A DNA stretch of 49,505 bases from Bacteroidota bacterium (GTDB lineage Bacteria > Bacteroidota > Bacteroidia > Bacteroidales > UBA7960), in NCBI GenBank assembly GCA_007693555.1, contig REDJ01000127.1, forward strand, positions 1 to 49,505, given 5' to 3'. A model generated the notes under the pieces. The model had not been told where the DNA came from. It saw only the letters and a program-made list of their open reading frames with translations, and did no database searches. Numbering within the stretch: position 1 is the stretch's first letter; the number at the start of each line of letters is the position of its first letter. The position numbers and the translations under genes are program-made. This document shows positions 22,144 to 43,550 of the stretch, one piece after another.

Positions 22144-22199
22144 CTTCTGTCTTCCGTCTTCCGTCTTCCGTCTTCCGTCTTCGGTCTTCTGTCTTCTTT
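22144..22199 (-). repeat. 7-bp tandem array downstream of argS
   Basis: Eight contiguous 7-bp units, written on the plus strand CTTCTGT, CTTCCGT four times, CTTCGGT, CTTCTGT and CTTCTTT. In the sense of argS transcription the core unit is ACGGAAG. It starts 20 bp after the argS stop codon and ends about 70 bp before the T9SS cargo start codon. Confidence 0.9.
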
Positions 22200-22219
22200 C
22201 CAGGAACCTGTTTAGCAAT

Positions 22220-24016
22220 CTACATCCTTTCGGGCACCTCAATTCCCAGCATATCCATGGCTGTCTTGATTACCTTGGATGTGAGTCCGGATAGCTTCAA
22301 TCTGAAAAGCGAAATATTTTCATCGGGCTCATTCAGTACTGAGTAATCGTGGTAAAACTGGTTAAATTCCTTTGCCAGTTCGTAAACATAATTAGCAATG
22401 AGTGCAGGGCTCATATCAGCAGCGGCATCCTGAACTATCTGCGGAAAATTGTAAAGCGAACGGATCAGGTTTTTTTCCTTAATATTGATGACCACTTTTA
22501 AAGGGTCAAAATTTTTATCTGCTATACCTTTTTCCTCAGCTTTACGTATAATGGAACGAATACGGGCATGGGTATATTGAATGAATGGGCCCGTATTTCC
22601 ATTAAAATCAATAGATTCCTCAGGATTGAAGAGCATGTTTTTTTTGGGGTCAACTTTTAAAATAAAGTACTTAAGGGCACCCATACCTATAATGTGAAAC
22701 AGGTTTTCTTTTTCCTCTTCTGAAAATCCTTCAATCTTACCCAGCTCTTCAGTTGTTTTTCGGGCAGTTTTATACATTTCATCCATCAGATCATCGGCAT
22801 CTACAACAGTACCTTCACGCGATTTCATTTTACCCTGGGGCAGTTCAACCATACCGTATGACAAATGATGCAGATGATCAGTATAAGGCTTTTCAAGCTT
22901 TTTCAGCGCTTTTTTCAATACTTCAAAATGATAATTTTGTTCATTCCCTACCACATAGATCATTTTTCCGGGATTATAATCATCAAATCTTAACTGTGCT
23001 GTTCCAATATCCTGAGTTATGTAAACAGAAGTACCATCGGCCCGGAGAAGTAATTTTTCATCGAGACCTTCATTTGTAAGGTCAGCCCAGACTGAACCGT
23101 CTTCTTTTTTGAAAAATGCAGATTTTTCAAGTCCATCCAATACAATTTTCTTACCCATTAAATAGGTATCTGATTCGTAATAGATTTTATCGAAACTCAC
23201 ACCTAAACGTTGGTAAGTTGAATCAAAGCCCCTGTAAACCCATCCGTTCATTGTTTTCCAGATTTTGAATACATCAGGATCGCGGGCTTCCCATTTGCGT
23301 AATAATTCGCGGGCTTCCTGCATGAGCGGTGCATTATTGCGTGCATTCTCATCGTCATAATTGTGAGTTTCTTTCAAGGCCTGAGCCTCTTTTCGCAGGG
23401 CCGTTTCAAACAGCACGTAATAATCGCCCACAAGTTTATCACCTTTTTTCTTACTTGACTCCGGCGTTTCACCATTGCCCCATTTCATCCAGGCCAGCAT
23501 TGATTTACAAATATGAATACCCCGGTCATTTACAAGGTTAACCTTATAGGTTTTCTTTCCTGAAGCCTCAAGAATCTGTGCAAGGGAATAACCGAGCAGA
23601 TTGTTACGTATATGACCCAGATGAAGCGGTTTATTGGTATTGGGTGAAGAATATTCAACGACAACCGGTTCAGATTCATCCGGCAATGTTGTACCATAAT
23701 TATTTTCTTCCGAGGCCTTTTGGAGAAAAGTCATCCAGTATTGATGATGTAAAGTAAAATTTAAAAATCCTTTCAGTACCTGAAAAGAATCTATTTCTTT
23801 CATGTGCTTTTTCAGATACTCTCCAATGAGTTGGGCTGTTTCTTCAGGTGATTTCTTCGTCAGTTTCACAAAAGAGAAAACCACCAGAGTAAAATCACCT
23901 TCAATATCCTTGCGGGTATTTTGTAAAGCAATCGAGGAAGAATCAATCTCCTGACCGAACAGTTCAGTTATTGCTTTCTGCACCTGAATGACTATTTTAT
24001 CTTCAATTTTGCTCAT
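22220..24016 (-). CDS. argS: Arginyl-tRNA synthetase
   Basis: 598 residues, class I synthetase. The N-terminal Add1-like domain (1-110) includes GDFTLVVFSFVKL. The HIGH motif appears as HLGH at 132-135, after EYSSPNTNKPL, and the KMSKS equivalent as GKMKSREG in the second half. The C-terminal anticodon-binding domain (DALR type) begins near residue 480 and has the usual VYELAKEFNQFYHDYSV segment. Length and motifs are complete. The start codon lies just downstream of a TAATTTTG -7 box (24046-24039). A 7-bp repeat array follows the stop. Confidence 0.97.
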   Translation of the reverse strand: MSKIEDKIVIQVQKAITELFGQEIDSSSIALQNTRKDIEGDFTLVVFSFVKLTKKSPEETAQLIGEYLKKHMKEIDSFQVLKGFLNFTLHHQYWMTFLQKASEENNYGTTLPDESEPVVVEYSSPNTNKPLHLGHIRNNLLGYSLAQILEASGKKTYKVNLVNDRGIHICKSMLAWMKWGNGETPESSKKKGDKLVGDYYVLFETALRKEAQALKETHNYDDENARNNAPLMQEARELLRKWEARDPDVFKIWKTMNGWVYRGFDSTYQRLGVSFDKIYYESDTYLMGKKIVLDGLEKSAFFKKEDGSVWADLTNEGLDEKLLLRADGTSVYITQDIGTAQLRFDDYNPGKMIYVVGNEQNYHFEVLKKALKKLEKPYTDHLHHLSYGMVELPQGKMKSREGTVVDADDLMDEMYKTARKTTEELGKIEGFSEEEKENLFHIIGMGALKYFILKVDPKKNMLFNPEESIDFNGNTGPFIQYTHARIRSIIRKAEEKGIADKNFDPLKVVINIKEKNLIRSLYNFPQIVQDAAADMSPALIANYVYELAKEFNQFYHDYSVLNEPDENISLFRLKLSGLTSKVIKTAMDMLGIEVPERM

Positions 24017-24038
24017 CTTTTCAATATTTAACAGGTTG

Positions 24039-24046
24039 CAAAATTA
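24039..24046 (-). promoter_or_regulatory. -7 box for argS
   Basis: Minus-strand TAATTTTG matches TAnnTTTG; transcription should begin about 16 bp upstream of the argS start codon. No -33 element is evident. Confidence 0.4.
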
Positions 24047-24162
24047 CTCCTTTTTTCGGGTTTGTATTCAGGCTTTAGTTTCAGACACAGGTTAATTTCT
24101 AGCTGTTAATTACAATTGGAAAAAAATTCCTTCCACTGACAGAATTTTTTGTAAAAATTATG

Positions 24163-24170
24163 TAGGTTTG
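24163..24170 (+). promoter_or_regulatory. -7 box for the cyclic-2,3-diphosphoglycerate synthetase-like gene
   Basis: TAGGTTTG matches TAnnTTTG and lies 64 bp before the start codon, giving a leader of about 57 nt. No convincing -33 element was seen. Confidence 0.4.
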
Positions 24171-24233
24171 TGAGATTTTTCTAAAAGCAATTTTCAATAA
24201 TCAAAATAAATCTAATCCTAAATATCAAAACAC

Positions 24234-25589
24234 ATGAGCAAAAAGAAGAACGTAATTATTATCGGTGCTGCCGGAAGAGACTTTCACAACTTTAACACTT
24301 ACTACAGAAAAAATGACAACTATAATGTGCTAGCTTTTACAGCTGCCCAGATTCCCGACATTGATGGCAGAAAATATCCTGCCGAGTTAGCCGGGGAACT
24401 TTATCCCCAGGGAATTCCTATTTATACACAGGATGAACTACCCCACCTTATCAAAAAACTGGATGTGGATGTTTGTGCATTCTCATACAGTGATGTATCT
24501 TACCAGGAAGTAATGGCAGTCGGCTCTATTGTAAATGCAAATGGAGCCGATTTTTTACTTATAGGCCCCAAGGAAACAATGTTAAAAAGCTCCAAACCGG
24601 TAATTGCAGTAGGAGCTGTTCGTACCGGTTGCGGGAAAAGCCAGACATCCAGAAGGCTTGTTGAAGCACTTATGTCACACGGCATGAAGGTAGTTGCCGT
24701 AAGACATCCAATGCCCTATGGCGACCTGGTTGCACAAAAAGTACAACGCTTTGCTACCCTGGATGACTTGAAAAAGCACAATTGTACTATCGAAGAAATG
24801 GAAGAATATGAACCGCATGTGGTAAGGGGTAATGTTATTTATGCCGGTGTTGACTACGAAGCCATTCTTCGTGAGGCAGAAAAGGAAGCTGATGTGATCC
24901 TTTGGGATGGCGGAAATAATGACTTTCCTTTTTTCAAACCGGACCTGATGGTAACGGTTGTGGACCCGCACCGACCCGGTCATGAACTTAACTATTATCC
25001 TGGAGAAACTACCCTCCGACTTGCGGATATTGTGGTGATCAACAAAATGGACAGCTCAGCACCCGAAAATATCCAGATTGTGCGAGAGAACATTATAAAA
25101 GTGAATCCAAAAGCAGTTGTAGTGGATGGAGCCTCACCCCTTACAGTAAGTGATCCATCACTCATTAAAGGGAAAAGAGTTCTTGTAGTAGAAGACGGAC
25201 CAACCCTTACACACGGGCATATGAAGATCGGTGCAGGTACAGTGGCAGCCAAAAAATTTGGCGCCGCCGAATTGGTTGACCCCAGACCTTTTATTGTGGG
25301 CCGCCTGAAAGAAACCTTCGAGATTTATCCTGAAATAGGAACACTTTTACCTGCAATGGGCTATGGTGCTCAGCAAATTGCTGACCTGGAAAAAACCATA
25401 AACAATACAGACTGTGATGCTGTAGTCATAGCAACTCCCATTGATTTACAGAGAATTGTAAAAATTAACAAACCTACAGTAAAAGTTGACTATGAGTTGC
25501 AGGAAATTGGCAAACCTGTTCTTTGCGATCTGGTTTGTGACTTTCTGAAATCAAAAAATCTCATCAGAAAAGATTGTGGATGCAAATAA
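24234..25589 (+). CDS. Cyclic 2,3-diphosphoglycerate synthetase-like P-loop GTPase
   Basis: 451 residues. The N-terminal 120 residues form a nucleotide-binding Rossmann-like unit (VIIIGAAGRDFHNFNTYYR). The P-loop is GAVRTGCGKSQTSR (about 127-140), followed by LWDGGNNDFPFF and the INKMD specificity motif (about 267-271). The family (COG2403) includes archaeal cyclic 2,3-diphosphoglycerate synthetase, but most bacterial members are of unknown role and are called predicted GTPases. The C-terminal end has a CGC motif. It is monocistronic, between a -7 box and a strong terminator. The family is certain, the reaction is not. Confidence 0.85.
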   Translation: MSKKKNVIIIGAAGRDFHNFNTYYRKNDNYNVLAFTAAQIPDIDGRKYPAELAGELYPQGIPIYTQDELPHLIKKLDVDVCAFSYSDVSYQEVMAVGSIVNANGADFLLIGPKETMLKSSKPVIAVGAVRTGCGKSQTSRRLVEALMSHGMKVVAVRHPMPYGDLVAQKVQRFATLDDLKKHNCTIEEMEEYEPHVVRGNVIYAGVDYEAILREAEKEADVILWDGGNNDFPFFKPDLMVTVVDPHRPGHELNYYPGETTLRLADIVVINKMDSSAPENIQIVRENIIKVNPKAVVVDGASPLTVSDPSLIKGKRVLVVEDGPTLTHGHMKIGAGTVAAKKFGAAELVDPRPFIVGRLKETFEIYPEIGTLLPAMGYGAQQIADLEKTINNTDCDAVVIATPIDLQRIVKINKPTVKVDYELQEIGKPVLCDLVCDFLKSKNLIRKDCGCK

Positions 25590-25596
25590 CCATTGA

Positions 25597-25626
25597 AAAA
25601 GCGGCTTTATTGGCCGCTTTTTTTTT
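25597..25626 (+). terminator. Intrinsic terminator after the GTPase gene
   Basis: AAAAGCGGC (25597-25605) pairs with GCCGCTTTT (25613-25621), with a 7-nt loop and a following T-run to 25626. Confidence 0.92.
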
Positions 25627-25686
25627 GAATATTAATTTCGTTAAACCTTTCATATCAACATAATTATCACTTATAAACAAAAAACT

Positions 25687-26595
25687 ATGAAGAACAAAAG
25701 CCTGGTATCCATTAACGATTATTCAAAAGAAGAACAACTACGGGTACTGGAAGTAGCTCGCGAATTTGAAGCCAATCCGGTGCAAACAATTCTGAAAGAT
25801 CATGTTATTGCCTCATTATTTTTTGAACCATCCACCCGCACACGCCTGAGTTTTGAAAGCGCCATAAATCGCCTGGGTGGAAAAATTGTAGGGTTTTCTG
25901 AAGCTTCTAACACCAGTGTAAAAAAGGGTGAATCTCTCAGAGATACCATTCTTACAATTGCCAATTACTCCGACCTGATCGTTATGCGTAATCCTGTTGA
26001 GGGAAGTGCACGATTTGCATCGGAAATATCTCCCGTGCCTATAATAAATGCGGGCGACGGGTCAAACCAGCATCCAACCCAGACTCTTCTGGACCTTTAC
26101 AGTATCATTAAAACCCAGGGAACGCTTGATAATTTGCATGTTGCCTTTGTGGGAGATTTGAAATATGGCCGCACTGTACATTCTCTTGTTATTGCATTGT
26201 GCAATTACAACACCACTTTTCACCTGGTATCGCCTGTGGAACTCAAGCTACCCAGCTCGGTGAAGATGCATATCAAAGAGAAAAATCTCGCCTACCACCA
26301 GTACACCCAGTTGGATGAGGTAATCCCCAATGTGGATACCCTTTACATGACCCGTATCCAGAAAGAGCGTTTTTCTGATCCACTGGAATTTGAGCGCATC
26401 AAAAACTCATATAATCTTCACAAGGATATGCTTCATACGACCAAAGAAAATTTCAGAATATTGCATCCTATGCCGAGGGTCAATGAAATCCATATCAATG
26501 TGGACCCCGACCCACGGGCATACTACTTCCAGCAGGCTCTCAACGGAGTGTATGTGAGGCAGGCGTTGCTGGCGATAATGCTGGGAATGAGGTAA
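25687..26595 (+). CDS. pyrB: Aspartate carbamoyltransferase catalytic subunit
   Basis: 302 residues. The carbamoyl-phosphate loop FFEPSTRTRLSFE spans about 46-58, the Lys loop is present as SVKKGES, and HPTQTLLDLY and HPMPRVNEI are the other active-site segments. It catalyses the committed step of pyrimidine synthesis. The regulatory subunit gene pyrI follows on the same strand, but 157 bp away, and that gap is filled with 7-bp repeat arrays. A possible promoter element TAATTTCG (25633-25640) is upstream. Pyrimidine control through the PyrI subunit is expected. Confidence 0.97.
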   Translation: MKNKSLVSINDYSKEEQLRVLEVAREFEANPVQTILKDHVIASLFFEPSTRTRLSFESAINRLGGKIVGFSEASNTSVKKGESLRDTILTIANYSDLIVMRNPVEGSARFASEISPVPIINAGDGSNQHPTQTLLDLYSIIKTQGTLDNLHVAFVGDLKYGRTVHSLVIALCNYNTTFHLVSPVELKLPSSVKMHIKEKNLAYHQYTQLDEVIPNVDTLYMTRIQKERFSDPLEFERIKNSYNLHKDMLHTTKENFRILHPMPRVNEIHINVDPDPRAYYFQQALNGVYVRQALLAIMLGMR

Positions 26596-26601
26596 AATGA
26601 C

Positions 26602-26671
26602 AGAGAATGGAAAACGGAGAACGGAGAACGGAGAAAGAAATCCGAAATCATAAATCACGAATCCCAAATCA
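26602..26671 (+). repeat. 7-bp tandem arrays downstream of pyrB
   Basis: Two motif families run head to tail in steps of seven. From 26602 to 26636 the units are AGAGAAT, GGAAAAC, GGAGAAC twice and GGAGAAA. From 26637 to 26671 they are GAAATCC, GAAATCA, TAAATCA, CGAATCC and CAAATCA. The array begins 7 bp after the pyrB stop codon. Confidence 0.85.
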
Positions 26672-26717
26672 AAAAACTCCGCGTCCATTGAGCCTTCGCG
26701 TCTCCGCAGTAAAATTA

Positions 26718-26745
26718 TAAATCATAAATCAACAATCAAAAATAA
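26718..26745 (+). repeat. Short 7-bp array just upstream of pyrI
   Basis: TAAATCA twice, then ACAATCA and AAAATAA, ending 8 bp before the pyrI start codon. It repeats the TAAATCA unit of the array after pyrB. The 46 bp between the two arrays are more GC-rich and contain CTCCGC and CGCGTC each twice. Confidence 0.7.
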
Positions 26746-26752
26746 CTTTCCG

Positions 26753-27214
26753 ATGAACGAAAAAGTAAAAGAACTAAAAGTATCAGCCATTGAAAATGGT
26801 ACTGTTATAGACCACATACCCGCAAGTGCAGTATTCCAGGTAATTAAAATGCTGAAGCTTGATGAATTTGACCAAATGGTATTATTTGGCACCAACCTGG
26901 AAAGCAAAAAATACGGAAGTAAGGGAATTATAAAGGTAAGTAACAAGTTTTTCAAACCGGAAGAACTGAATAAAATTTCACTGGTTGCTCCTCATGCAAG
27001 TGTAATTGAGATAAAAGATTACCAGGTTGTGAAGAAAACAATTGTGGAAATTCCAGACAATATAACAGCCATAGTGAAGTGTTTTAATCCCAATTGTATC
27101 ACCAATATTGAAGTTATTACTACCCGATTCGATGTGGTTGATAAAGAAGAAATCAGGCTGAAGTGCAGGTATTGCGAAAAAATTACGGTGAAAAACAACA
27201 TGGTTTTTAAGTAA
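26753..27214 (+). CDS. pyrI: Aspartate carbamoyltransferase regulatory subunit
   Basis: 153 residues. The N-terminal nucleotide-binding domain contains LKVSAIENGTVIDHIP (8-23). The C-terminal zinc domain has the four cysteines at 110, 115, 138 and 141 (spacing CxxxxC and CxxC), as in E. coli PyrI, where zinc is needed for contact with PyrB. It binds CTP and ATP allosterically. It would be transcribed with pyrB, unless transcription begins within the repeat-rich gap that separates them. Confidence 0.96.
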   Translation: MNEKVKELKVSAIENGTVIDHIPASAVFQVIKMLKLDEFDQMVLFGTNLESKKYGSKGIIKVSNKFFKPEELNKISLVAPHASVIEIKDYQVVKKTIVEIPDNITAIVKCFNPNCITNIEVITTRFDVVDKEEIRLKCRYCEKITVKNNMVFK

Positions 27215-27293
27215 GATTTCCTGCCATAATATCACATAAAAAAAAATGTGCCGGGATTGATATTGTAATTGATGAATTTTTTTAACTGTATCA

Positions 27294-27326
27294 TTGTATA
27301 CACCCCTGAAAAGTGTTTTATCTTTG
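27294..27326 (+). promoter_or_regulatory. Promoter for the metalloprotease/TolB-like gene
   Basis: TATCTTTG (27319-27326) is a good -7 box and a TTG at 27294-27296 lies 22 bp upstream. Transcription from about 27333 would exclude the ATG at 27313 and fits the ATG at 27355. Confidence 0.5.
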
Positions 27327-27354
27327 CTTTGATAACAAACCCGGAAACAAACCT

Positions 27355-30246
27355 ATGGATATAAAACTTTTGTTCAGACTAATATTTTTTTGCTTCATTT
27401 TCCTCCAAGGCACTCAAACATATGCCCAGTTCTACTCAGCCGGACAGGATCCTGCCAGTATCCGGTGGAAACAGATCAATACGGAAAATTTCCAGGTAAT
27501 TTTTCCGGATAATTATGAAGAACAGGCCAGGTACATTGCAGATATCCTTGAGCATTCCTATGAATATGCAACAAAAAGTCTGAACCATAATCCGCGCAAG
27601 GTTTCGGTAATAGTGCATAACCAGACAGTTATATCCAATGGTTTTGTTTCATGGGCACCCCGACGCATTGAACTGTATACAAATCCACCAGCCAATAACG
27701 ACACCCATGACTGGATGGAACGACTTGTATTGCACGAATTTCGTCATGTAGTACAGATTGACAAACTCAATCAGGGGCTTACACGGATTCTGGGATATAT
27801 TGTTGGCGAACAGGCTGTTGGTGCCGTGCTGGGACTTTTTGTACCTATGTGGTTCCTGGAAGGTGATGCAGTGGCTATGGAAACAGCTTTTACATTTGGC
27901 GGACGTGGCAGATTGCCACAGTTTGAGCAAGGATTAAGAGCCCAGATATTGACCCGTGGCAAGTATTCTTTTGATAAAGCTTATTTTGGTTCATATAAAG
28001 ACCATGTACCCAATTTTTATGAACTGGGCTATCAACTGGTAAGTATGGCCCGTATTGAAAAAGGAGCCAATGTGTGGAGCGGAGTTATTGACAATGTGGC
28101 ATTCATGCCCATTTCACCTATTCCCTTCTCAAGAGGCATGGAAAGAGAAACAGGACGCAACAAAGACCAACATTATAAACACACTTTTACAGTTCTGGAT
28201 TCGCTTTGGCGAAACCAAAAGGATCAACATGAATATACACATGGTGAAATAATCAGCAGAGAAAACAAACTCTTTACCCAGTATACACAGGCATTTTTTG
28301 TTAATGATAGCACTGTAATTGCCCTGAAAACAGGACTAAAGGACATACCCCAAATTGTTAAGATCTCTTCAGATGGCATAGAAGAAAGGCTGTTTGCTCC
28401 CGGCTGGTACTTTCCCAATGCCTTTGATTATGCTGCCGGCAGGCTTGTATGGAACGAGCAACGGCCCGATCCCCGCTGGGAACATCGCAACTGGTCAGAA
28501 ATCATGATTTATGACATAGAGACAAATAAGAGAATTCGTCTGACCAGAAAAGGTCGCTTCTTTGCCCCCGCCCTTTCCTATGATGGAACGCGCATCGCTG
28601 CAGTGGAAACCACCGAAACGAGCCAATATGCAATGGTGATTCTGGACTCAGAAACAGCTGAAGAGTTATTCCGGTTCAGCTATGAAAGTAATGATTTTAT
28701 TATGGAGCCGGCATGGCACCCCAATGGTGAAAAGATCGCCATAATTGCAGTGGATGCAAGGGGAAAACGCATTGACATCATTGACATCCGCAATCAAAAC
28801 CACAGAACCATTTTACCGGCTTCCCATACGGAGATTTCCTCTCCCCGCTTTATGGGTGATGACATTATTTTTACAGGAACTTGGTCCGGAATCAACGGTA
28901 TTTACCGGTTGAAGCCCGACTCAACTGAACCACAAAAAATCATCTCTCCGGTATTCGGTGCCGATTTTGCAGCAGCTTCTGATAGTTATATTATTTGGTC
29001 GGATTACAGTGCTGATGGATACCGGCTGATGAAAAAACCTATTGACCAACTGGAACCAATTTCAATTGACAAGATTGAGGACCATTCACCAAAGTTTCAC
29101 CAAATCCTTGCCCAACAAGAGGAAACAGTGATAACTAAGGAGAATATTACCCGCAGGGAGCACGAAATAAAACCTTACAGCAGATTGCGAAACCTTTTTC
29201 ACCTGCACAGCTGGGCACCGGCCTATATTGATGGGGCCAGTCAGGAAGCCGGAATAGGTGCATCCATGCTGTTTCAAAACAAACTCAGCACATCTTTTGC
29301 CACAGTTGGCTACCTTTGGGATGTTGATGAACAGACAGGAAAATTCAGTACTGTATTTTCTTACCAGGGTTGGTATCCTGTGATTGATTTGATTGCTGAA
29401 TCGGGACACAGGAGATTATATTACCAGGATGGAGAAAATATCAATAACATTCTTTGGACTGAAAACCAGTTTTTGCTTGCTCTTTCAATTCCTTTTCGTT
29501 TTCAGCGCAACGATAAATTCTATGGTTTAATCCCCATGATAAGCGGGGGGCTGAACCAGGCACTTCGTAACCGGCACACGCCTGATACACTCTTCCTTGA
29601 TAACAACAGATATTTTGCTTTGCAGGACAACCAGGTTTACAGCCATACCTGGCGTATTACGGGTTACCGCCAGAAACGCAGTGTAGCAAGGGATATTTTC
29701 CCGCGATTTGGTCAGATCATAGATTTACAATACAGGCATTCACCATTTCAGGAATTTGGAATGGGGAGTATTTTTGCAGCCAGGGGAATTTTTTATTTCC
29801 CCGGTTTTATCAGGCACCAGGGATTCAGGTTCAGTGCAGGACACCAGGAGAAGCGGCAGAATGAACCCCAACCCAACGTAATTAATTATTCTTACGGTAA
29901 CATCTTGCCATTTCCAAGAGGGACACTATCGCGCGAGCTCAAATCTCTAAGTACTTTTACATTTGATTATGCTTTCCCAATGCTATATCCTGATATGAGC
30001 ATCCGTGCTGTCATTTACCTGATGCGTTTGCGCGGATATGTATTTTCTGATATTGCACGTGCCACTACATTTCCTGATCCTGAAAACAACAGGCAGGAAA
30101 CATATAATCTGAGGTCATCAGGTTTCGGAATTGTGGGTGACATGCATCTTTTCCGATTTATAGCGCCAATTTCACTGGGAGTGCAGGTTGCATTTCCGGA
30201 AAACGAAGACTTAAACCTTCAGTTGATTCTGGGAGTGAGGTTTTAA
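27355..30246 (+). CDS. Secreted MA-clan metalloprotease-like / TolB-type propeller / outer-membrane barrel protein
   Basis: 963 residues from the ATG at 27355, which begins MDIKLLFRLIFFCFIFL, a good signal peptide ending YAQF; an ATG 42 bp upstream would translate the promoter. A gluzincin-type core follows, HEFRH at about 127-131 and WFLEGDAVAMET about 50 residues later, matching HExxH plus EGxA. Residues of about 320-600 carry TolB-like WD40 repeats (SYDGTRIAAVE, AWHPNGEKIAIIAVD). The last 300 residues look like beta strands ending LILGVRF, an outer-membrane barrel. Many Bacteroidota have such proteins, usually annotated as TolB-like. Substrate and activity are unknown. Confidence 0.8.
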   Translation: MDIKLLFRLIFFCFIFLQGTQTYAQFYSAGQDPASIRWKQINTENFQVIFPDNYEEQARYIADILEHSYEYATKSLNHNPRKVSVIVHNQTVISNGFVSWAPRRIELYTNPPANNDTHDWMERLVLHEFRHVVQIDKLNQGLTRILGYIVGEQAVGAVLGLFVPMWFLEGDAVAMETAFTFGGRGRLPQFEQGLRAQILTRGKYSFDKAYFGSYKDHVPNFYELGYQLVSMARIEKGANVWSGVIDNVAFMPISPIPFSRGMERETGRNKDQHYKHTFTVLDSLWRNQKDQHEYTHGEIISRENKLFTQYTQAFFVNDSTVIALKTGLKDIPQIVKISSDGIEERLFAPGWYFPNAFDYAAGRLVWNEQRPDPRWEHRNWSEIMIYDIETNKRIRLTRKGRFFAPALSYDGTRIAAVETTETSQYAMVILDSETAEELFRFSYESNDFIMEPAWHPNGEKIAIIAVDARGKRIDIIDIRNQNHRTILPASHTEISSPRFMGDDIIFTGTWSGINGIYRLKPDSTEPQKIISPVFGADFAAASDSYIIWSDYSADGYRLMKKPIDQLEPISIDKIEDHSPKFHQILAQQEETVITKENITRREHEIKPYSRLRNLFHLHSWAPAYIDGASQEAGIGASMLFQNKLSTSFATVGYLWDVDEQTGKFSTVFSYQGWYPVIDLIAESGHRRLYYQDGENINNILWTENQFLLALSIPFRFQRNDKFYGLIPMISGGLNQALRNRHTPDTLFLDNNRYFALQDNQVYSHTWRITGYRQKRSVARDIFPRFGQIIDLQYRHSPFQEFGMGSIFAARGIFYFPGFIRHQGFRFSAGHQEKRQNEPQPNVINYSYGNILPFPRGTLSRELKSLSTFTFDYAFPMLYPDMSIRAVIYLMRLRGYVFSDIARATTFPDPENNRQETYNLRSSGFGIVGDMHLFRFIAPISLGVQVAFPENEDLNLQLILGVRF

Positions 30247-30248
30247 AG

Positions 30249-30304
30249 ATGTCAAATGTTTGATGTCAAATGTTTGATGTCGAATGTATGATGTCGAATG
30301 TATT
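30249..30304 (+). repeat. 7-bp tandem array after the TolB-like gene
   Basis: Eight 7-bp units all begin ATGT: ATGTCAA, ATGTTTG, ATGTCAA, ATGTTTG, ATGTCGA, ATGTATG, ATGTCGA, ATGTATT. It starts 3 bp after the stop codon. The pattern is also a 14-bp repeat of paired units. Confidence 0.9.
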
Positions 30305-30387
30305 GAAAGTAGGTTTGGGGAATAACTTCATATTGCTAATAAGACTGCTTATAATGCCTAAGAAGAGTTTTAATCCTGAGACTTCCA

Positions 30388-30462
30388 ACATTTGACATAC
30401 GATCCCGTATAGGCGTGATTTCAAGCCTATGGCTTTCAACATGATACATCTGACATTTGACA
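30388..30462 (-). repeat. Inverted copies of the ATGTCAA repeat downstream of wecA
   Basis: On the minus strand, right after the wecA stop codon, come TCAAATG, TCAGATG and TATCATG (30460-30440). A further inverse copy, plus-strand ACATTTGACAT, lies at 30388-30398. Between them ATAGGC (30409-30414) and GCCTAT (30425-30430) form a hairpin. The array mirrors the one after the convergent gene. Confidence 0.7.
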
Positions 30463-31539
30463 TTAAATCTTCTCCTTTTCCTTGTTCATATTGGCAATCA
30501 TAAATAACACAGTTAACAGCCCAACAAAATATCCTCCATATAAGAAATTATGCCACATCTTCCATGTTGAAATGAAATTGGTAAGGAATAGAGTTAGCAT
30601 AATTGATACTACTGACAGGCCGACAAATACCCACCCTACCTGCCTGTCATTTAATCCGAGGTAAGAAAGATGGTGTGTTGTATGGTCCTTACCACCCACA
30701 AAGGGCGAACTGCCTCGCAAAATACGTTTGAAGGAAACCGTTGTAGTGTCAATGATGGGGAGAGCGAACAAGGTGATAACAGCGAAAAACCGCATCAATG
30801 CCGGAACATCTGTTTGAAAAGACATTCCATTCCATAAACAATTGATACCAAAAGCGGCAAGCAATATGCCCAAAAACTGACTTCCGGTATCACCCATAAA
30901 CATACGCGAAGGATGCCAGTTAAAATGCAAAAAGCCAATCAGAGATGCTATAGTGGCCAGCACAATTATGAACAAAGGGTTTTCAAATCCTCCACCCAAA
31001 AACATTCCAAGTAGAATAGCAACCAATATCCCTAAAGAAACAACAGCTGTAATGCCATCCATATTGTCAAGCATATTTATACTGTTCATCATTCCAACAA
31101 CCCAAAACAGTGTCAACGCATAGTTAAATAAATTACTGTCAAAAAGCTGAATATAAGAACCTGTGATTATTAAAATTACGCCACAAATCATTTGTGTAAA
31201 AACCTTAATTAATGGCCGGGTATTGTAAGCATCATCAAAGAGCCCCAGAAGAAACCCCACAGTTACAGCTAAGAGAATACCGAGCGTCCTCAGGTTAAAG
31301 AAATTTCCATCATCTGCAAACAGAAAAGACACAAAAATCAAGGAAAACAAGAAAATAATAAAAAAGGAAATACCCCCCAGCGATGGCTTTGAAGTTCCAC
31401 TCCAGCGGATAATGGTTTCGCTTGTGTTTCTTATTCCAAGTGTTTTTGCAAACTTCAGCAAAAAGCTGTTGATAATGAGCGAAAAAGCCAGACATGCTAT
31501 AAAAAATAATCCATATATTAATACCGGATTTTCTGGCAT
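30463..31539 (-). CDS. wecA: Undecaprenyl-phosphate sugar-1-phosphate transferase (WecA/TagO type, GT4-like membrane family)
   Basis: 358 residues with about ten membrane helices. It has the family signatures LFDDAYNTRPLIK (Asp-Asp pair near 101), NMLDNMDGITA and the HFNWHPSRMFMGDTGSQFLG loop. These polyprenyl-phosphate N-acetylhexosamine-1-phosphate transferases start O-antigen, teichoic acid or capsule chains by putting a sugar phosphate on undecaprenyl phosphate at the inner membrane. It is the last gene of the polysaccharide block. The sugar is not known, so the symbol is by homology only. Confidence 0.88.
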   Translation of the reverse strand: MPENPVLIYGLFFIACLAFSLIINSFLLKFAKTLGIRNTSETIIRWSGTSKPSLGGISFFIIFLFSLIFVSFLFADDGNFFNLRTLGILLAVTVGFLLGLFDDAYNTRPLIKVFTQMICGVILIITGSYIQLFDSNLFNYALTLFWVVGMMNSINMLDNMDGITAVVSLGILVAILLGMFLGGGFENPLFIIVLATIASLIGFLHFNWHPSRMFMGDTGSQFLGILLAAFGINCLWNGMSFQTDVPALMRFFAVITLFALPIIDTTTVSFKRILRGSSPFVGGKDHTTHHLSYLGLNDRQVGWVFVGLSVVSIMLTLFLTNFISTWKMWHNFLYGGYFVGLLTVLFMIANMNKEKEKI

Positions 31540-35406: not shown

Positions 35407-35425
35407 CTGTATTGGCATTTGCCTG

Positions 35426-35459: not shown

Positions 35460-35537
35460 ATTCGTGGCATTTAACATGCAAACGTATTGCAAGAAAGTAT
35501 GGGTCTGCAGCTTTATAATATTCTTTGAAATAGTTTG

Positions 35538-36770: not shown

Positions 36771-36855
36771 TTCGGAAGCTAACTTGTTTATTTTGCAGAA
36801 ATTTTGGGCAATATTACAAAAAAAGTGTTAATTGAATATTACGTGAAATACCTGT

Positions 36856-38745
36856 TTATGCATGATATTTTTCAAACCAATGTTGAAAAACTATTATAGC
36901 CCATATCTGTGCATGGATTTCTGTGGGATTTGGAGAGAAAAGTTGTTTCTTAAGTTTGTTAATAACTTTTGGATTAAAGATTCCCTGTTCCTTTATAAAA
37001 TCATCATTTAACCATTTTTTTTGAATACTTCCACTCAATTCTTTACGAAACCAGGATAAAAGTGGGACTTCGAATCCTTGCTTTGGCCTGTTATGCAATT
37101 CTAACGGCAGGATTTGCCTGAAAGTATCTGTTAAAATCCGCTTCCTTTGATTGTTGTTTATTTTATAATCTGCGGGTAAAGAAAACAGCAGATTAACCAC
37201 TTCATGGTCCAGAAACGGAACTCTTACTTCCAGCGAATTGGCCATTGACATCATATCTACCTTGGTAAGCATGTCATTGGCAAGAACCAGATTCATATCA
37301 TTTCGCAGAACATCGTTAAAGTCATTGTCGCCTGAAATTGAAGAAGTCAGAAAATCTTTTCTGGTGTAATAATCCTTTTCATCAGGATTATGAATAAGCA
37401 AATCTGCAGGATACTTTTCATCGGTATATGCCGCCCATCTCCAGTATCTTTGTTTAGGAGGTAAACTCATCCCCTCCCCAAAACGATGAAACTGCCTGAA
37501 TTTGTTACCCAGATGTGTATGTCTTGATTTGGGCAGAATTGAAAAAACAGGATGCAGGTATTTTAAGATATTTGCACTCAATCCACCCTGTCTGGCCCGC
37601 CATTCAGCCATATGTTTGTTATATCCTGCAAGCATTTCATCGGCTCCATCACCTGATAATGCAACTGTTACACGACTTTTTGTTTCACGACTGAGAATAT
37701 ATACTGCCAGTGCCGATGAATCAGCAAAAGGTTCATCAATATAATCCAGCACATCATACAAGCAATCAAGTAAATCATTTGTGTCGAGCAGAAATTCTGT
37801 ATGATCTGTTTTGTGCAATTTTGCAACACTGCGGGCATAGCGGGTTTCATCAAACATAGGCTGATCGCGGAATCCTATTGAGAATGTTTTGAGTTGATTG
37901 ACATGCCTGGCAGCAAGAGCCGTAATAATACTGCTGTCAATCCCACCACTCAGAAATGCTCCCAAAGGAACATCGGAAACCAATCGTTTTACAACAGCAT
38001 TTTCCAGTTTCTCAAATAGCAACTTCCCTGCCTCATCATATGAAATTTCTTTATATTCAGCCAGCGGTGAACCGGGGATTTGGTAATATTGCTGAATTTC
38101 CTGAGCTCCATTCTTTAGGAGAATGAAATGCCCCGGCATCAGTTTTAAAACGTCCTGATAAATACTCCAGGGGCCCGGAGTGTAGTTCAATTGGAAATAG
38201 ATGTGCAGAGAAGAATAATCGAGGTTTTTCGGAATTCCAAGTTTAAGTAAGGCTTTCATTTCTGAGGCAAACAGGAACTTTTGACCATCGGTATAGTACA
38301 AGAGAGGCTTTATACCAAAACGATCGCGGGCCAGTAAAAGGCTGTTTTCCCGTTTGTTGAAAAAGGCAAAGGAAAAAAATCCCTGCAGTTCATTGATTCC
38401 TTCTGCACCCTTATTAATGAGCCAATAAAGCAAAACCTCCGTATCACTTTGGGTTCTGAAGCCTACTCCGGAAGACAAAAGTTGCTGGCGTAACTGCCTG
38501 TAATTAAAAATTTCTCCATTGAAAACTATGGCATACTCCTGTGTTTCATCCCAGAAGGGCTGATTGGCAGCCTCCGTAGGATCAATAATAGAAAGGCGTG
38601 TATGACCCAATGCCACATGCCCTTTGCAAAAGTGAGCCTGAACTTCAGGTCCCCGTTTTTTAAGTGTTTCCAGCGCAGCATCCAAAACGGGAGCGGGTTG
38701 CTCCAACGGCCCGTAAAAAGAATAAATACCGCAAATACCGCACAT
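36856..38745 (-). CDS. asnB: Glutamine-hydrolysing asparagine synthetase-like amidotransferase (AsnB/AsnH type)
   Basis: 629 residues. The Ntn glutaminase begins MCGICG with nucleophile Cys2. It includes GHTRLSIIDP and the FNGEIFNYRQLR loop. The synthetase domain has the PP-loop FLSGGIDSS (about 261-269) and DGADEMLAGYNKH. AsnB-like proteins within polysaccharide loci often amidate sugar carboxyl groups (WbpS type) rather than make free asparagine. It is the first gene of the co-oriented block. Both roles remain possible. Confidence 0.92.
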   Translation of the reverse strand: MCGICGIYSFYGPLEQPAPVLDAALETLKKRGPEVQAHFCKGHVALGHTRLSIIDPTEAANQPFWDETQEYAIVFNGEIFNYRQLRQQLLSSGVGFRTQSDTEVLLYWLINKGAEGINELQGFFSFAFFNKRENSLLLARDRFGIKPLLYYTDGQKFLFASEMKALLKLGIPKNLDYSSLHIYFQLNYTPGPWSIYQDVLKLMPGHFILLKNGAQEIQQYYQIPGSPLAEYKEISYDEAGKLLFEKLENAVVKRLVSDVPLGAFLSGGIDSSIITALAARHVNQLKTFSIGFRDQPMFDETRYARSVAKLHKTDHTEFLLDTNDLLDCLYDVLDYIDEPFADSSALAVYILSRETKSRVTVALSGDGADEMLAGYNKHMAEWRARQGGLSANILKYLHPVFSILPKSRHTHLGNKFRQFHRFGEGMSLPPKQRYWRWAAYTDEKYPADLLIHNPDEKDYYTRKDFLTSSISGDNDFNDVLRNDMNLVLANDMLTKVDMMSMANSLEVRVPFLDHEVVNLLFSLPADYKINNNQRKRILTDTFRQILPLELHNRPKQGFEVPLLSWFRKELSGSIQKKWLNDDFIKEQGIFNPKVINKLKKQLFSPNPTEIHAQIWAIIVFQHWFEKYHA

Positions 38746-38986
38746 AGGGAAAGGTTGAAAAGTTTATGGGTTGATAGGTTTAAGAGTTGAGAGTGTGACA
38801 GATTTAGGATTTTTGATTTTTTTAAGCTTTGCTGTGGGCATCCTGCAATCCATTGAAATAAAAATCATTTAGATATTTATGGATTGCTAACACCAGAAGT
38901 GCCGGAAATTTTAACAGCTACTATTTCCGCGTATGCCCATCTAACCCTAAACCCATCAACCCATCAACCTATAAACCTATAAACTC
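38746..38986. repeat. Intergenic region with nested inverted repeats and octamer arrays
   Basis: Plus-strand octamers AAGGTTGA, AAAGTTTA, TGGGTTGA, TAGGTTTA, AGAGTTGA run 38751-38790. The minus strand just after the lpdA stop reads GAG then TTTATAGG twice, TTGATGGG twice and TTTAGGG (38986-38945), an imperfect inverse copy. Inside them lie GGGCAT (38836-38841)/ATGCCC (38933-38938), GCAATCCA (38845-38852)/TGGATTGC (38880-38887) and CGGAAAT (38903-38909)/ATTTCCG (38923-38929). It holds no gene. A REP- or MITE-like element or an RNA structure is possible. Confidence 0.7.
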
Positions 38987-40378
38987 TTACAAATGAATAA
39001 CTTCGCCATAAGCAGCCGCAGCAGCTTCCATAATGGCTTCGCTCATGGTGGGGTGCGGATGTACTGCCTTTATAATTTCATGCCCCGTTGTTTCCAGCTT
39101 ACGTGCAACTACGGCTTCGGCAATCATTTCGGTAACATTTGCACCAATCATGTGCACACCCAGCAGCTCACCATATTTTGCATCAAATATTACCTTAACA
39201 AAGCCATCTTTGCTACCGGCAGCACTTGCCTTACCGGAGGCAGAAAACGGAAATTTTCCAACCTTGATTTCATATCCGGCTTCTTTTGCAGCCTTTTCGG
39301 TATAACCGACTGAAGCAACTTCAGGACTGCAATAAGTACACCCGGGAATATTGTTATAATTGATGGGCTCGGGGTTATGACCGGCAATTTTTTCCACACA
39401 TAAAATCCCTTCGGCTGAAGCTACATGTGCAAGTGCCTGACCGGACACCACATCACCGATTGCATAATAACCCTCAACATTGGTGCGGTAAAACTCATCT
39501 ACCTTTATTTTGTCTTTTTCTACCGTAATACCGGCTTCTGCAAGACCTATCCCCTCAATATTTGAGCTAATACCAACTGCTGACAGTACAATATCTGCTT
39601 CAATGGTTTCCTCTCCTTTGGAGGTCTTGATTTTAACCTTGCATTTTTTTCCACGGGTATCCACTTCCTCAACTGTAGCATTTGTCATTATCTTCATCCC
39701 GGCTTTTTTGAAGGATCTTTCCAGTTGTTTGGATACATCCTCATCTTCTACCGGCACAATATTGGGCATAACTTCAACCAGTGTAACTTTGGTTCCAATG
39801 GCATTATAAAAGTAGGCAAACTCTGAGCCTATTGCACCTGAACCGACCACCACCATGCTTTCAGGCTGCTTTTCAAGCACCATGGCTTTGCGATATCCAA
39901 TGATTTTTTTGCTGTCCTGTTTCAGATTGGGCAGTTCGCGAGAGCGGGCCCCTGTGGCAATAATAATATGATTTGCAGAATACTCCTTTGATTTGCCATC
40001 TTCCGCTTTAACCTCAACTTTCTTGCCTGGCAGGACTTTCCCAAAACCTTCCAGCACATCAATTTTGTTTTTTTTGAACAGAAACTGAATTCCTTTGCTC
40101 ATTCCTGCGGCCACATCCCGGCTGCGTTTTACCATTGCGGAGAAATCGGCTTTGGGTTCAGTATCGATGGATATGCCATAATCCTTTGCATGCTTAAGAT
40201 ACTCAAAAACGTTGGCACTTTTGAGAAGGGCTTTTGTGGGGATACAACCCCAGTTCAGACAAACTCCACCCAATTCAGCTTTTTCCACAACCGCTACTTT
40301 CATTCCAAGCTGTGATGCACGTATGGCCGCAACATAACCTCCCGGCCCGCTTCCTACAACAATTAAATCATAATTCAT
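38987..40378 (-). CDS. lpdA: Dihydrolipoyl dehydrogenase
   Basis: 463 residues from the ATG at 40378 (MNYDLIVVGSGPGGY). An ATG eight codons upstream is less likely because the FAD-binding strand starts at MNYD. Redox cysteines are Cys40 and Cys45 (GGVCLNWGCIPTK), the NAD site is VVGSGAIGSEFAYF, and the C-terminal active His is in HPHPTMSEA. It reoxidises lipoamide in 2-oxoacid dehydrogenase or glycine cleavage complexes. No complex genes are next to it. It follows GGGPS by 58 bp. Octamer repeats begin directly after its stop codon. Confidence 0.95.
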   Translation of the reverse strand: MNYDLIVVGSGPGGYVAAIRASQLGMKVAVVEKAELGGVCLNWGCIPTKALLKSANVFEYLKHAKDYGISIDTEPKADFSAMVKRSRDVAAGMSKGIQFLFKKNKIDVLEGFGKVLPGKKVEVKAEDGKSKEYSANHIIIATGARSRELPNLKQDSKKIIGYRKAMVLEKQPESMVVVGSGAIGSEFAYFYNAIGTKVTLVEVMPNIVPVEDEDVSKQLERSFKKAGMKIMTNATVEEVDTRGKKCKVKIKTSKGEETIEADIVLSAVGISSNIEGIGLAEAGITVEKDKIKVDEFYRTNVEGYYAIGDVVSGQALAHVASAEGILCVEKIAGHNPEPINYNNIPGCTYCSPEVASVGYTEKAAKEAGYEIKVGKFPFSASGKASAAGSKDGFVKVIFDAKYGELLGVHMIGANVTEMIAEAVVARKLETTGHEIIKAVHPHPTMSEAIMEAAAAAYGEVIHL

Positions 40379-40436
40379 ATCTGCACTTGATTTTAAATTC
40401 ATAATGGATTAATATGCTAAATTATAAATTTTTCAC

Positions 40437-41210
40437 TTATGACTGATACCTGACATGAGTGGTTTCGTTCAGTCTGTCGCGGGTTTTACAAAGTTCTGCG
40501 ATAAATGAAGGCTCAGACTCGGTGGCATTGCCTACCACAACAATGTCAGCTCCGGCTACCCAGCTTTTTGCAGCATCAATGGCTGTGCGTATTCCTCCAC
40601 CTACAATAAGAGGTATCCGGATTGATGCTTTCACACGTTTTATCATTTTGGGTGATACAGGTATAGATGCACCGCTACCTGCATCCATGTAAATAAGCTT
40701 GAGACCCAGCATTTCACCTGCCATAGCAGTACAGGATGCAATGTCGGGTTTGTCAAAAGGGATAGGTGTTGTATTACTCATATATACTACCGAAGTAACC
40801 CTGCCACTTTCCACGAGCATATAGCCTGTGGGAAGAATTTCAAGACCGGATTTTTTTAAAACAGGCGCAGCAATGACATGATTGCCTATCAGCAGTTCAG
40901 GGTTGCGTCCTGATATGAGACTTAAAAGGAGGATTGCATCAGCTCCGGCATGCACCTGAAGCGGATTTCCGGGAAAAATAATTACCGGGATATGAACAGT
41001 TTCCTTTAAAATCTGGATGCATGTACTCATGAAATCGCAGGTGATCAGGCTTCCTCCTGTAAAAATATAATCCACACGATAGTGGTTGACAAGTTCAGCA
41101 ATCCTTATCACTCCTTCTTCGTCTACTTTATCAGGGTCAATCAAAATGGCAAGTTGCCGAAAATTGTTCGTTGAGGAATGTTTTATCTTCTGGTAAAGGA
41201 TATCTTGCAT
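40437..41210 (-). CDS. Geranylgeranylglyceryl/heptaprenylglyceryl phosphate synthase-like (group II GGGPS)
   Basis: 257 residues from the ATG at 41210. An ATG at 41234 would lie on top of the -7 box. It is a TIM barrel with the family segments LAILIDPDK, YIFTGGSL, IPVIIFPGNP, YMDAGSGAS and VGGGIRTAIDAAKSW, then AGADIVVVGNAT at the glycerol-1-phosphate end. These enzymes make ether bonds between polyprenyl chains and sn-glycerol-1-phosphate. They are best known for archaeal lipids, and group II also occurs in Bacteroidota. The chain length used and the product's purpose in bacteria are not settled. It follows the PPTase gene, an arrangement I recall from Flavobacteriia. Confidence 0.9.
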   Translation of the reverse strand: MQDILYQKIKHSSTNNFRQLAILIDPDKVDEEGVIRIAELVNHYRVDYIFTGGSLITCDFMSTCIQILKETVHIPVIIFPGNPLQVHAGADAILLLSLISGRNPELLIGNHVIAAPVLKKSGLEILPTGYMLVESGRVTSVVYMSNTTPIPFDKPDIASCTAMAGEMLGLKLIYMDAGSGASIPVSPKMIKRVKASIRIPLIVGGGIRTAIDAAKSWVAGADIVVVGNATESEPSFIAELCKTRDRLNETTHVRYQS

Positions 41211-41231
41211 GAAGTTCGGGACATTTTTTTG

Positions 41232-41239
41232 CAAAGGTA
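41232..41239 (-). promoter_or_regulatory. -7 box for GGGPS gene
   Basis: Minus-strand TACCTTTG matches TAnnTTTG; transcription should begin near 41226, which fits the ATG at 41210 and rules out the one at 41234. It lies in the 44-bp gap after the PPTase gene. Confidence 0.45.
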
Positions 41240-41254
41240 AGAAATCAGGTGATT

Positions 41255-41893
41255 TTATTTATCCAGTGCATAAGCCAGTATATAATCATCAAGCATTTGA
41301 TATTCAACCGGATAAATTTTTTCATCATAATCGGTTTTTATGGTCCCGTATATTAACCCTTGCTCCTGCACATCAAAGGGTTCTATGTAAATATGCTCTC
41401 TGAAAAGTATATCTCTTTTGCCGTGTAACTTATAAAGCGTTTCCTTTGCTGCCCAAATTATATATAGTTGTTCTATTGAAAGACCTTTTCCGTTCTCAAA
41501 CATTTCTGACTCGTTAAGAAACTTATGCTCAATTCTTTTGATTTTTTCCTCCATTCTTTCAATATCAATACCTACAGTGTATTTTGGGCTGGCAATCAAT
41601 GCGGAGTATTTGCCGGAGTGCGATACTGATATATGTCTGACGCCGTTGTTCAGATATGGTTTTCCGTATTCATCATAACATATTGCACTTAACTCATGAT
41701 CCCGAACCAGATATGGGAGTATCATCCTGTAAGCAAGCCAGTGCTGTTTACGGGTGGGGGTTTTCAGTGAGGAAAAGATTTTTTCTTCATCCTCAGAGAG
41801 CTTAATTCTTGCGTACATATCATCTACGCTTTCGTTAATCTCCCAAATGCCGATTGCGGCATCCTGAACAAATTTTTTTAAAAACAGACTCAT
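41255..41893 (-). CDS. 4'-phosphopantetheinyl transferase (Sfp type)
   Basis: 212 residues from the ATG at 41893 (MSLFLKKFVQDAAIGIWEI); a more distant ATG at 41971 would add 26 residues without family similarity. Motifs are ISVSHSGKYSAL, VGIDIE (Mg2+ site, Asp110) and WAAKETLYK (147-155). It converts apo acyl- or peptidyl-carrier proteins to the holo form using CoA. The Sfp-type differs from AcpS and may serve the main fatty acid synthase or a secondary pathway. No carrier protein gene is in the window. It is probably in an operon with GGGPS. Confidence 0.92.
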   Translation of the reverse strand: MSLFLKKFVQDAAIGIWEINESVDDMYARIKLSEDEEKIFSSLKTPTRKQHWLAYRMILPYLVRDHELSAICYDEYGKPYLNNGVRHISVSHSGKYSALIASPKYTVGIDIERMEEKIKRIEHKFLNESEMFENGKGLSIEQLYIIWAAKETLYKLHGKRDILFREHIYIEPFDVQEQGLIYGTIKTDYDEKIYPVEYQMLDDYILAYALDK

Positions 41894-42024
41894 AATGTGC
41901 TTTTCAGGTTTGTTAAGCTTTTGCAGTAAAAAACCGCAATTATTCACCGGAAAATTCTTTTCCGGTATCAACCCGATTGAACCTCTTTGTTATGAATTTG
42001 TATTATAATAGCTTGTCAGGCATA

Positions 42025-42055
42025 TTTCACTTTAGTATTTAAAGTGTTAACTTTG
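42025..42055 (+). promoter_or_regulatory. Promoter of ahcY
   Basis: TAACTTTG (42048-42055) is a perfect -7 box, with TTTC (42025-42028) 19 bp upstream as the -33 element. Transcription from about 42062 gives a leader of 25 nt. Confidence 0.6.
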
Positions 42056-42086
42056 CAAAATTAAAAATTTTAAATTACAAAACAGA

Positions 42087-43508
42087 ATGGAAAAAGTTTT
42101 AACAGATACACAACTTCCCTATAAGATAGCAGATATTTCTCTTGCTGAGTTTGGACGCAAGGAGATTGAGATTGCAGAAAAGGAAATGCCCGGTTTGATG
42201 GCTTTACGCGAAAAATACAGCGGGGTGAAGCCTTTGAAAGATGTAAGAATAATGGGTTCTCTCCACATGACTGTTCAAACTGCAGTATTGATAGAAACCC
42301 TGGTTGAACTTGGTGCCAATGTGCGTTGGGCCAGTTGCAATATTTTTTCTACCCAGGATCATGCCGCAGCGGCCATTGCCAAAAGAGGCATTCCGGTATT
42401 TGCATGGAAAGGTGAAACACTTGAAGAGTACTGGTGGTGCACCGAACAGGCACTTACCTTTCCCGATGATAAGGGACCACAGCTCATAGTAGATGATGGT
42501 GGTGATGCTACCCTTCTTATTCATCTGGGCTATAAAGCTGAAGAAAATCCATCAACCCTTGATAAACAAGCATCCAGCCGCGAGGAAGCTGAAATTCTGA
42601 AACTTTTAAAAAATACTCTGGAGAAAAATAATCAGAAATGGCAGCGCATGGTCAAAGCATGGAAAGGGGTATCTGAAGAGACCACAACCGGAGTTCATCG
42701 GCTCTATCAGATGCTGGAAAAAGGAGAATTACTTGTTCCTGCAATCAATGTGAATGACTCTGTTACCAAATCTAAATTCGACAATCTTTATGGTTGCCGA
42801 GAATCACTGGCCGATGGGATTAAAAGAGCCACAGATGTTATGATTGCCGGCAAGGTGGTAGTGGTTTGTGGATATGGAGATGTGGGTAAAGGATGCGCCC
42901 ATAGCATGCGCGGATATGGAGCAAGGGTAATTGTAACTGAAATTGACCCCATTTGCGCTTTGCAGGCTGCAATGGAAGGTTTTGAAGTAAAAACCGTGGA
43001 AGATGCCCTGGATGAAGGAAACATTTTTGTTACCGCAACCGGCAACAAAGATGTTATCACTGTGGAACACATGAAAAAAATGAAAGACCAGGCGATTGTA
43101 TGCAATATAGGCCATTTCGATAATGAAATACAGGTTGATAAACTTGATGAAACTCCTGGTATTCAAAAAGTAAATATCAAACCACAGGTTGACAAGTATG
43201 TGTTTCCTGATGGTCATGAAATATTCCTTCTGGCTGAAGGCCGCCTCGTAAATCTTGGTTGTGCCACCGGACATCCCTCATTTGTAATGAGTAATTCTTT
43301 CACCAACCAGGTGGTTGCCCAAATGGAACTTTGGAAAAATGATTATGAAATCGGAGTATATCGTCTGCCAAAACATCTGGATGAAGAAGTAGCCAGGTTG
43401 CACCTTGAAAAAATCGGAGTAAAGCTCACCAAACTTACACCTGAGCAGGCCGATTATATCGGGGTAAAAGAATACGGGCCTTACAAGCCTGAACATTACC
43501 GTTATTAA
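42087..43508 (+). CDS. ahcY: Adenosylhomocysteinase
   Basis: 473 residues. It splits S-adenosylhomocysteine into adenosine and homocysteine, relieving product inhibition of methyltransferases. Visible are [23 protein letters not shown] (substrate side), [15 protein letters not shown], the NAD-binding [11 protein letters not shown] (about 260-270) and the C-terminal [11 protein letters not shown] that reaches into the neighbouring subunit. Length is normal for bacteria. Its own promoter and a strong terminator show that it is monocistronic. A 7-bp repeat array begins directly at the stop codon. Confidence 0.98.
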
Positions 43509-43550
43509 GAGTTTAGAGTTTAGAGTTTAGAGTTTAAAGTTTAGGGTTGA
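43509..43550 (+). repeat. 7-bp tandem array directly after ahcY
   Basis: GAGTTTA four times, then AAGTTTA and GGGTTGA, beginning at the first base after the TAA stop. The junction TAAGAGTTTA is identical to the junction after lpdA. Confidence 0.9.

Follow-up and report, generated by a model that had tools for sequence, protein, structure and literature searches.

Imperfect 7- and 8-bp tandem arrays stand behind stop codons, mostly with the G-rich strand in sense, in a Bacteroidota genome

The stretch of DNA considered here, referred to throughout as the window, is the 49,505-nucleotide contig REDJ01000127.1 (GCA_007693555.1) from the 4.23-Mb, 247-contig draft genome of a Bacteroidota bacterium of the Bacteroidales lineage UBA7960. 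Between its genes lie short tandem arrays of imperfect 7- or 8-bp units, called with Tandem Repeats Finder and with a separate caller of our own. A sequence-only reading of the window had placed such arrays behind at least six genes, about 0-20 bp past the stop codon. Tandem Repeats Finder returned them behind five, namely argS, pyrB, a TolB-like gene, lpdA and ahcY, at 22, 13, 1, 2 and -1 bp from the stop, respectively; the proposed distance therefore holds for most and is slightly exceeded at argS. The sixth array, behind a wecA-like gene, is weak, with 2.7 copies in Tandem Repeats Finder, and was missed by our own caller. The identities of argS, pyrB, lpdA, ahcY and the asparagine synthase gene (asnB) rest on family matches above curated cut-offs, while the matches of the wecA-like and TolB-like genes fall below them.

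On the minus strand, a GGAAGAC-type 7-bp array of 7.7 copies (22143-22197; 22143-22196 in Tandem Repeats Finder) lies in sense to argS. Behind pyrB, the plus strand carries a GGAGAAC-type 7-bp array in sense to the gene (26609-26635; Tandem Repeats Finder 26603-26635), followed by an imperfect GAAATCC-type 7-bp array called by Tandem Repeats Finder (26637-26670) and by a core, CTCCGCG...CTTCGCGTCTCCGCAG (26670-26716), which sits between two arrays and has two further matches in the genome sample described below. The array on its far side, a minus-strand AAATCAT-type 7-bp array (26711-26743), precedes the next gene by 9 bp; this gene by eye appears pyrI-like. The plus-strand array GATGTCAAATGTTT behind the TolB-like gene (30248-30306) has a period of 14 that amounts to two 7-mers, and across the same gap the short CAAATGT array (30446-30464, minus strand) stands at the wecA-like stop, inverted with respect to the TolB-side array. 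Upstream of asnB and antisense to it, plus-strand 8-bp-type units (38753-38790) were found by Tandem Repeats Finder only, below the threshold of our own caller; they face the minus-strand 8-bp array GGTTGATG/GGTTTATA (38936-38984, from rows 38936-38977 and 38943-38984), which is in sense to lpdA. Both gaps (30248-30464 and 38753-38984) hold inward-facing pairs, in which similar units stand in inverted orientation on the two sides of the gap. The GAGTTTA 7-bp array of ahcY (43508-43548, plus strand) begins at the stop codon and ends ahead of a terminator-like hairpin. With six intergenic arrays in 49.5 kb by our own caller, the window is richer than the genome sample that includes it, which holds 3.6 arrays of periods 7 and 8 per 100 kb.

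The arrays are real, and analysis of the genome sample confirmed that their period and place are strongly non-random. In 339 kb of the window's own genome, window included, imperfect arrays numbered 11 at period 7 and 7 at period 8 (a few of the latter being AT-only tracts), compared with 0.0 each in order-3 Markov control sequences, and the other periods from 5 to 20 contributed one array each at 6, 9, 14 and 17. Exact runs of at least 2.5 copies comprised seven of period 7 and seven of period 8, with 0.0 expected, and exact two-copy runs showed only a modest excess (at period 7, 55 observed vs 32.4 expected). A census of 1,062 kb of the same genome, in stretches picked without regard to repeats and after removal of low-complexity runs, gave 26 arrays of period 7, nine of period 8 and four of period 6; a further 12 had periods of 9, 12 or 14 to 19, and none had a period of 5, 10, 11, 13 or 20. 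Periods 6, 7, 8, 14 or 16 account for 41 arrays, 34 of which are intergenic and 26 of period 7. The sequence-only reading had contemplated, as the outcome that would tell against it, periods scattered over many lengths at random distances from stops; the sample did not show that outcome.

Placement was judged against random positions inside the same intergenic gap (2000 shuffles) for the 56 intergenic arrays whose neighbouring genes are both known. Twenty-five of them lie within 20 bp of a stop where 10.7 are expected, a 2.3-fold excess that none of the shuffles reached, and 11 have a start no more than 20 bp away (8.4 expected, p 0.16). The constant place past the stop that had been claimed is thus a strong tendency, and a minority of arrays, including those at 26711-26743 and 38753-38790 in the window, stand ahead of starts, and most of these have the reverse orientation. 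In the sample of the window's own genome picked without regard to repeats, arrays per gap amount to 1/112 (0.009) in divergent, 19/367 (0.052) in tandem and 11/91 (0.121) in convergent gaps, roughly tracking the 0, 1 and 2 stops that these gaps contain. Promoters are not expected in convergent gaps. When the convergent gaps of the window's own and other species were taken together, 10 of 15 arrays were within 20 bp of a stop (3.0 expected, 0 of 5000 shuffles); nine of the 10 were within 6 bp, and all 10 had the G-rich strand in sense. One convergent gap contains two identical 27-bp arrays 104 bp apart (L003 8574-8600 and 8678-8704).

A repeat has no reading direction until a strand is chosen, and array strand was accordingly defined as the G-richer strand. 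By this definition, the 41 arrays that have a stop within 30 bp divide into 34 in sense, 4 antisense and 3 ties, such that the earlier assertion that all arrays read with transcription is true of most but not of every one. The counts (sense:antisense:tie) are 19:3:1 in the window's own genome (23 arrays), 8:1:1 in other species of the genus (10) and 7:0:1 in three other Bacteroidota families (8). Of the four antisense arrays, one is a tract of almost nothing but A and T, and the other three also have a start within 20 bp. Irrespective of its orientation, the open reading frame (ORF) on the 5′ side of the G strand is the nearer one for 25 of 30 arrays from the sample picked without regard to repeats (p 0.0003; median distance 14 bp on that side vs 124 bp on the 3′ side) and for 31 of 36 across all loci of the window's own genome. 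Array scores had a median of 20 for outward (31 arrays) and 16 for inward orientation (5 arrays; p 0.07). Base composition does not explain the rule, as post-stop background sequence is split almost evenly (G exceeds C in 193 cases, C exceeds G in 168). Background leaders before starts are poor in G (C>G 315, G>C 129).

The units are diverse, as had been noted, with 37 types in 60 arrays (those with equal G and C excluded), among them GGAAGAC, GGAGAAC, GGAGACC, GGGTTTA, GAGTTTA, GGTTAA and GGGTTGAT. Many differ from one another by a single base, whereas several families are unrelated, a diversity that speaks against the suggested single repeat-binding protein. Unit identity is 0.85 between neighbours and 0.66 at seven units apart. 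Since neighbouring units are the most alike, they point to local copying, as slippage predicts, and an origin of the arrays by slippage is well supported. Growth from one end was considered and discarded, the identity at the two ends being 0.90 and 0.91, with no clear difference. Back-up stop codons were likewise rejected as a function, as GGAAGAC, GGAGAAC and GGAGACC units contain no stop yet share the same orientation. An initial pattern, a C-free strand in 19 of 34 arrays vs 1.1% of random 40-mers, was dropped because any 7-bp unit often lacks C or G by chance. Eight of the 34 sense arrays near stops, one of them orthologous to the ahcY array, contain no GG and still obey the strand rule, which argues that the layout is not a quadruplex property. 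Perfect and near-perfect GGGTTTA arrays occur in the bacterial drafts (L144 339-387, L093 924-968); in sequence they resemble the plant-type telomere repeat.

The comparison covered genomes of the genus (labelled G000, G001 and so on) and three other Bacteroidota families. Five of the genus genomes (G000, G002, G004, G009 and G010) bear arrays at orthologous places, and G008 has two period-7 arrays in 60 kb. Behind lpdA, 8-bp-type units were seen by eye in the window, G002, G004, G009 and G010, although the program picked up those of the window, G002 and G009 alone. Behind ahcY, four genomes carry GTTTAG-type units and G009 carries GGTTAA, and between flanks that can be aligned, the G002 and G004 arrays at ahcY are set apart by two units and one base. 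The orthologous pyrB stop has GGAGAAC in the window vs GGGTTTA-type units in G009; the gene after pyrB has a GGAGACC array in G009 and none in the window. Upstream of asnB, G002, G004 and G010 carry GGGTTTA-type 7-mers where the window has 8-bp-type units. Together, these comparisons indicate that the arrays are heritable, yet change in length and sometimes in identity. The ahcY arrays of the window, G002 and G004 precede a hairpin that carries a T run and is conserved; by eye, most species without an array have a hairpin there too. For most of the other window genes in the portion of the alignment used, the stop has no array in any species compared, and alignments with array-free species revealed, by eye, no clear ancestral seed. 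Across a phylum sample of 296 genomes, a GTCTTCN pattern matched 6 and its backward-read control 8, so the motif is not special; an 8-mer pattern matched 2. Among the matches listed, GTCTTCN arrays occur in named genomes of many phyla, Gelidibacter and Algibacter isolates included; at 80 of these loci, crude ORF calls place 48 arrays between genes and 36 in coding sequence.

Cyanobacterial short tandemly repeated repetitive (STRR) sequences, the analogue that the sequence-only reading had named, are short tandem heptamers between genes with named, fixed units. The comparison proved apt: the passages of PMC4692102 drawn on here describe G-quadruplex-forming heptamers (GGGAATC or GGGGA(C/T)T) in two Xanthomonas genomes and in Nostoc, with a matching layout, the coding strand carrying them within 50 bp of stops and the non-coding strand upstream of starts; the passages leave the role open and also mention three repeated heptanucleotides in Calothrix. 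In relatives, those heptamers often recur in the gap flanked by the same genes, where their length and sequence vary. Like them, the arrays here have a dominant 7-bp period, are intergenic, lie nearer the ORF on their 5′ side and are rare in divergent gaps. Unlike them, they occur in another phylum, and in place of one G-quadruplex-forming motif type per genome they show many 6-, 7- and 8-bp units, several of them GG-free. A 2007 study, as cited in PMC4692102, reported a general prokaryotic heptamer excess and suggested slippage, so the earlier remark that ordinary slippage would not favour one period was partly wrong; that excess shares period and slippage with the present arrays, while stop abutment and a strand rule are not in the cited passages. 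TAACTGA direct repeats in Beggiatoaceae, Cyanobacteria and five Bacteroidetes (PMC4679880, in the portion used here) are likewise intergenic heptamers and reach Bacteroidetes, but have one fixed unit; in the main genome most copies lie a short way ahead of starts and point forward. No tandem TAACTGA pair on either strand was found in 1.88 Mb (1,125 kb of the window's own genome, 434 kb of the genus and 323 kb of other families). No many-motif, stop-anchored repeat rule was found in the literature searched, whose coverage mostly excludes subscription papers. Here the known layout is seen with many unit types, some of them GG-free.

We tentatively propose, with a probability of roughly 0.38, that the arrays are slippage-born imperfect 7/8-bp repeats that arise or persist mainly in the transcribed but ribosome-free stretch past the stop. 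The proposal draws on the 7/8-bp period, the abutment on stops, the G-rich sense strand, the greater number of arrays in stop-richer gaps and the similarity of neighbouring units. Units would be gained and lost by slippage in replication or repair. As the ribosome leaves the message at the stop, naked G-rich RNA could re-pair with the C-rich template in an R-loop or leave the non-template strand single, and slippage would take place at this site. Such a course would account for the strand as well as for the sharp 5′ border at the stop. The start-side minority would be kept only where leader RNA stays G-poor, through selection against G in leaders. It is doubtful, though conceivable, that stop codons are mutational hot spots at which RNA-DNA re-pairing on a G-rich non-template strand drives 7/8-bp slippage; heptamer arrays would then be fossils left by uncoupled transcription, whatever their motif and without any role for quadruplexes.

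Several observations weigh against this proposal. No array was found in 105 kb of G007 or in 59 kb of G001, G005, G006 and G011, and transcription past stops alone is thus insufficient. The genus arrays nearest a start, within 20 bp, are G-antisense in 10 cases (three of them mutual orthologues at asnB) and G-sense in none; such arrays are at odds with an R-loop on the transcript of the gene itself and call for a further cause, and even this start-side rule is weaker in the three other families (2:1). Arrays 61-150 bp from a stop follow no strand rule (5:5). Intergenic arrays of the GAAGACN motif within 30 bp of a stop are G-sense by 9:2 in named Bacteroidota, whereas other phyla give 6:6; those within 60 bp of a start in named Bacteroidota are outward by 3:2. 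The stop and strand rule may thus not be universal. Genomic stability is reported, in the passages of PMC4692102 used, to be raised around heptamer repeats. Genes were crude ORF calls, array numbers are moderate, and the 34 sense arrays near stops include three, two of them at ahcY and one at lpdA, that are orthologous to window arrays and hence not independent. The R-loop step, moreover, is one that we infer.

Nearly as likely is a scheme in which slippage acts anywhere in non-coding DNA and selection alone sets place and strand: promoters and terminators would lose arrays, C-rich RNA past stops would be purged (e.g., through Rho loading), and so would G-rich leaders. The avoidance of G in leaders and the start-side arrays of the genus, which follow it, agree with such filtering, as do the far arrays with no strand rule and the nearly empty divergent gaps. 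Yet the background past stops hardly avoids C, and a filter that removes half of the arrays should thin those near stops, which are instead in excess, also in long convergent gaps. The arrays could also be functional 3′ elements that stabilise or end mRNA; their abutment on stops in sense orientation and the 8-bp-type units behind lpdA in five genomes are what such elements would show. This we regard as unlikely, given the unrelated units at the orthologous pyrB stop, the array of the following gene that G009 has and the window lacks, the array-free stops of most other window genes compared, the ahcY hairpin that most species keep in the absence of an array, and the lack of any Rfam family match in the window.

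Two further readings assign the arrays to a particular agent or structure. A mobile element or a templated enzyme (a reverse transcriptase, or telomerase-like end healing) could add G-rich 6-8-mers to 3′ ends, and two healed ends would yield the inward-facing pairs at TolB/wecA and lpdA/asnB that the window indeed contains; GGTTAA, GGGTTTA and GGGTTGAT, of 6, 7 and 8 bp, look telomeric, and two of five array flanks are dispersed. However, RVT_1 matches, present in 4 of 12 genus genomes including G000 and G002, were absent from array-bearing G004, G009 and G010 (88, 90 and 83% complete, which leaves their absence less than certain), and retroelement-made repeats were rejected on that account. 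Three of the five flanks, moreover, are not dispersed, which likewise disfavours the mobile short element suggested earlier for the arrays themselves, and the greater likeness of neighbouring units fits local copying rather than a fixed template; a templated origin is therefore improbable. Least probable of all is that the arrays are the published G-quadruplex heptamers of Xanthomonas and Nostoc, with a layout that results from quadruplex formation. The layout relative to ORFs matches (PMC4692102, in the passages used) and many units have GG tracts, but the GG-free arrays that obey the rule led us to rule out quadruplexes as its cause. Heptamer excess has been known with no settled cause, and the detailed study in PMC4692102, as far as its passages drawn on here go, framed the layout around G-quadruplexes. 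The same stop and strand rule across many units, some GG-free, loosens that tie and raises the question of local strand-biased mutation at the end of translation vs selection at the RNA level alone.

Genes beside arrays include argS, pyrB, lpdA, ahcY, Tex, PurK, a formyl transferase, PhoH, some transporters and a kinase. Contingency repeats of phase variation were considered and set aside, as these neighbours lack the link to surface or antigen genes. No clear gene-class theme emerged among 21 genes followed by arrays vs 20 controls: family matches were found for 18 of the 21 (5/5 and 13/16, one of the five below its curated cut-off) and for 15 of the 20, a comparison that used different libraries and 20 scanned of 30 drawn controls.

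Five sequences that border window arrays were compared with the sample. For three of them it holds no second full copy (one has a 26-bp partial match), and two recur, the 47-bp core at 26670 and a 165-bp stretch at 43633. The latter, behind the ahcY array (43633-43797), has four matches among the sampled loci, itself included, and diverged copies at 71-88% identity in at least about 60 places across the genus; it looks like a dispersed element. Cores of 8-bp-like CGCAAAGA/CGCGGAGA occur at 26670-26716 of the window and at L010 3176, L013 5044, L060 156, L151 3643, L153 4608 and L158 224, the L010 and L151 cores having a 7/8-bp array no more than about 250 bp away. Some arrays lie at or within 90 bp of contig ends (L154 86-113, L155 60-94, L160 1-71); the assembly may break at arrays, with an array count that is too low as a result. 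A CAACAG repeat lies within a coding ORF at 44719-44754 of the window.

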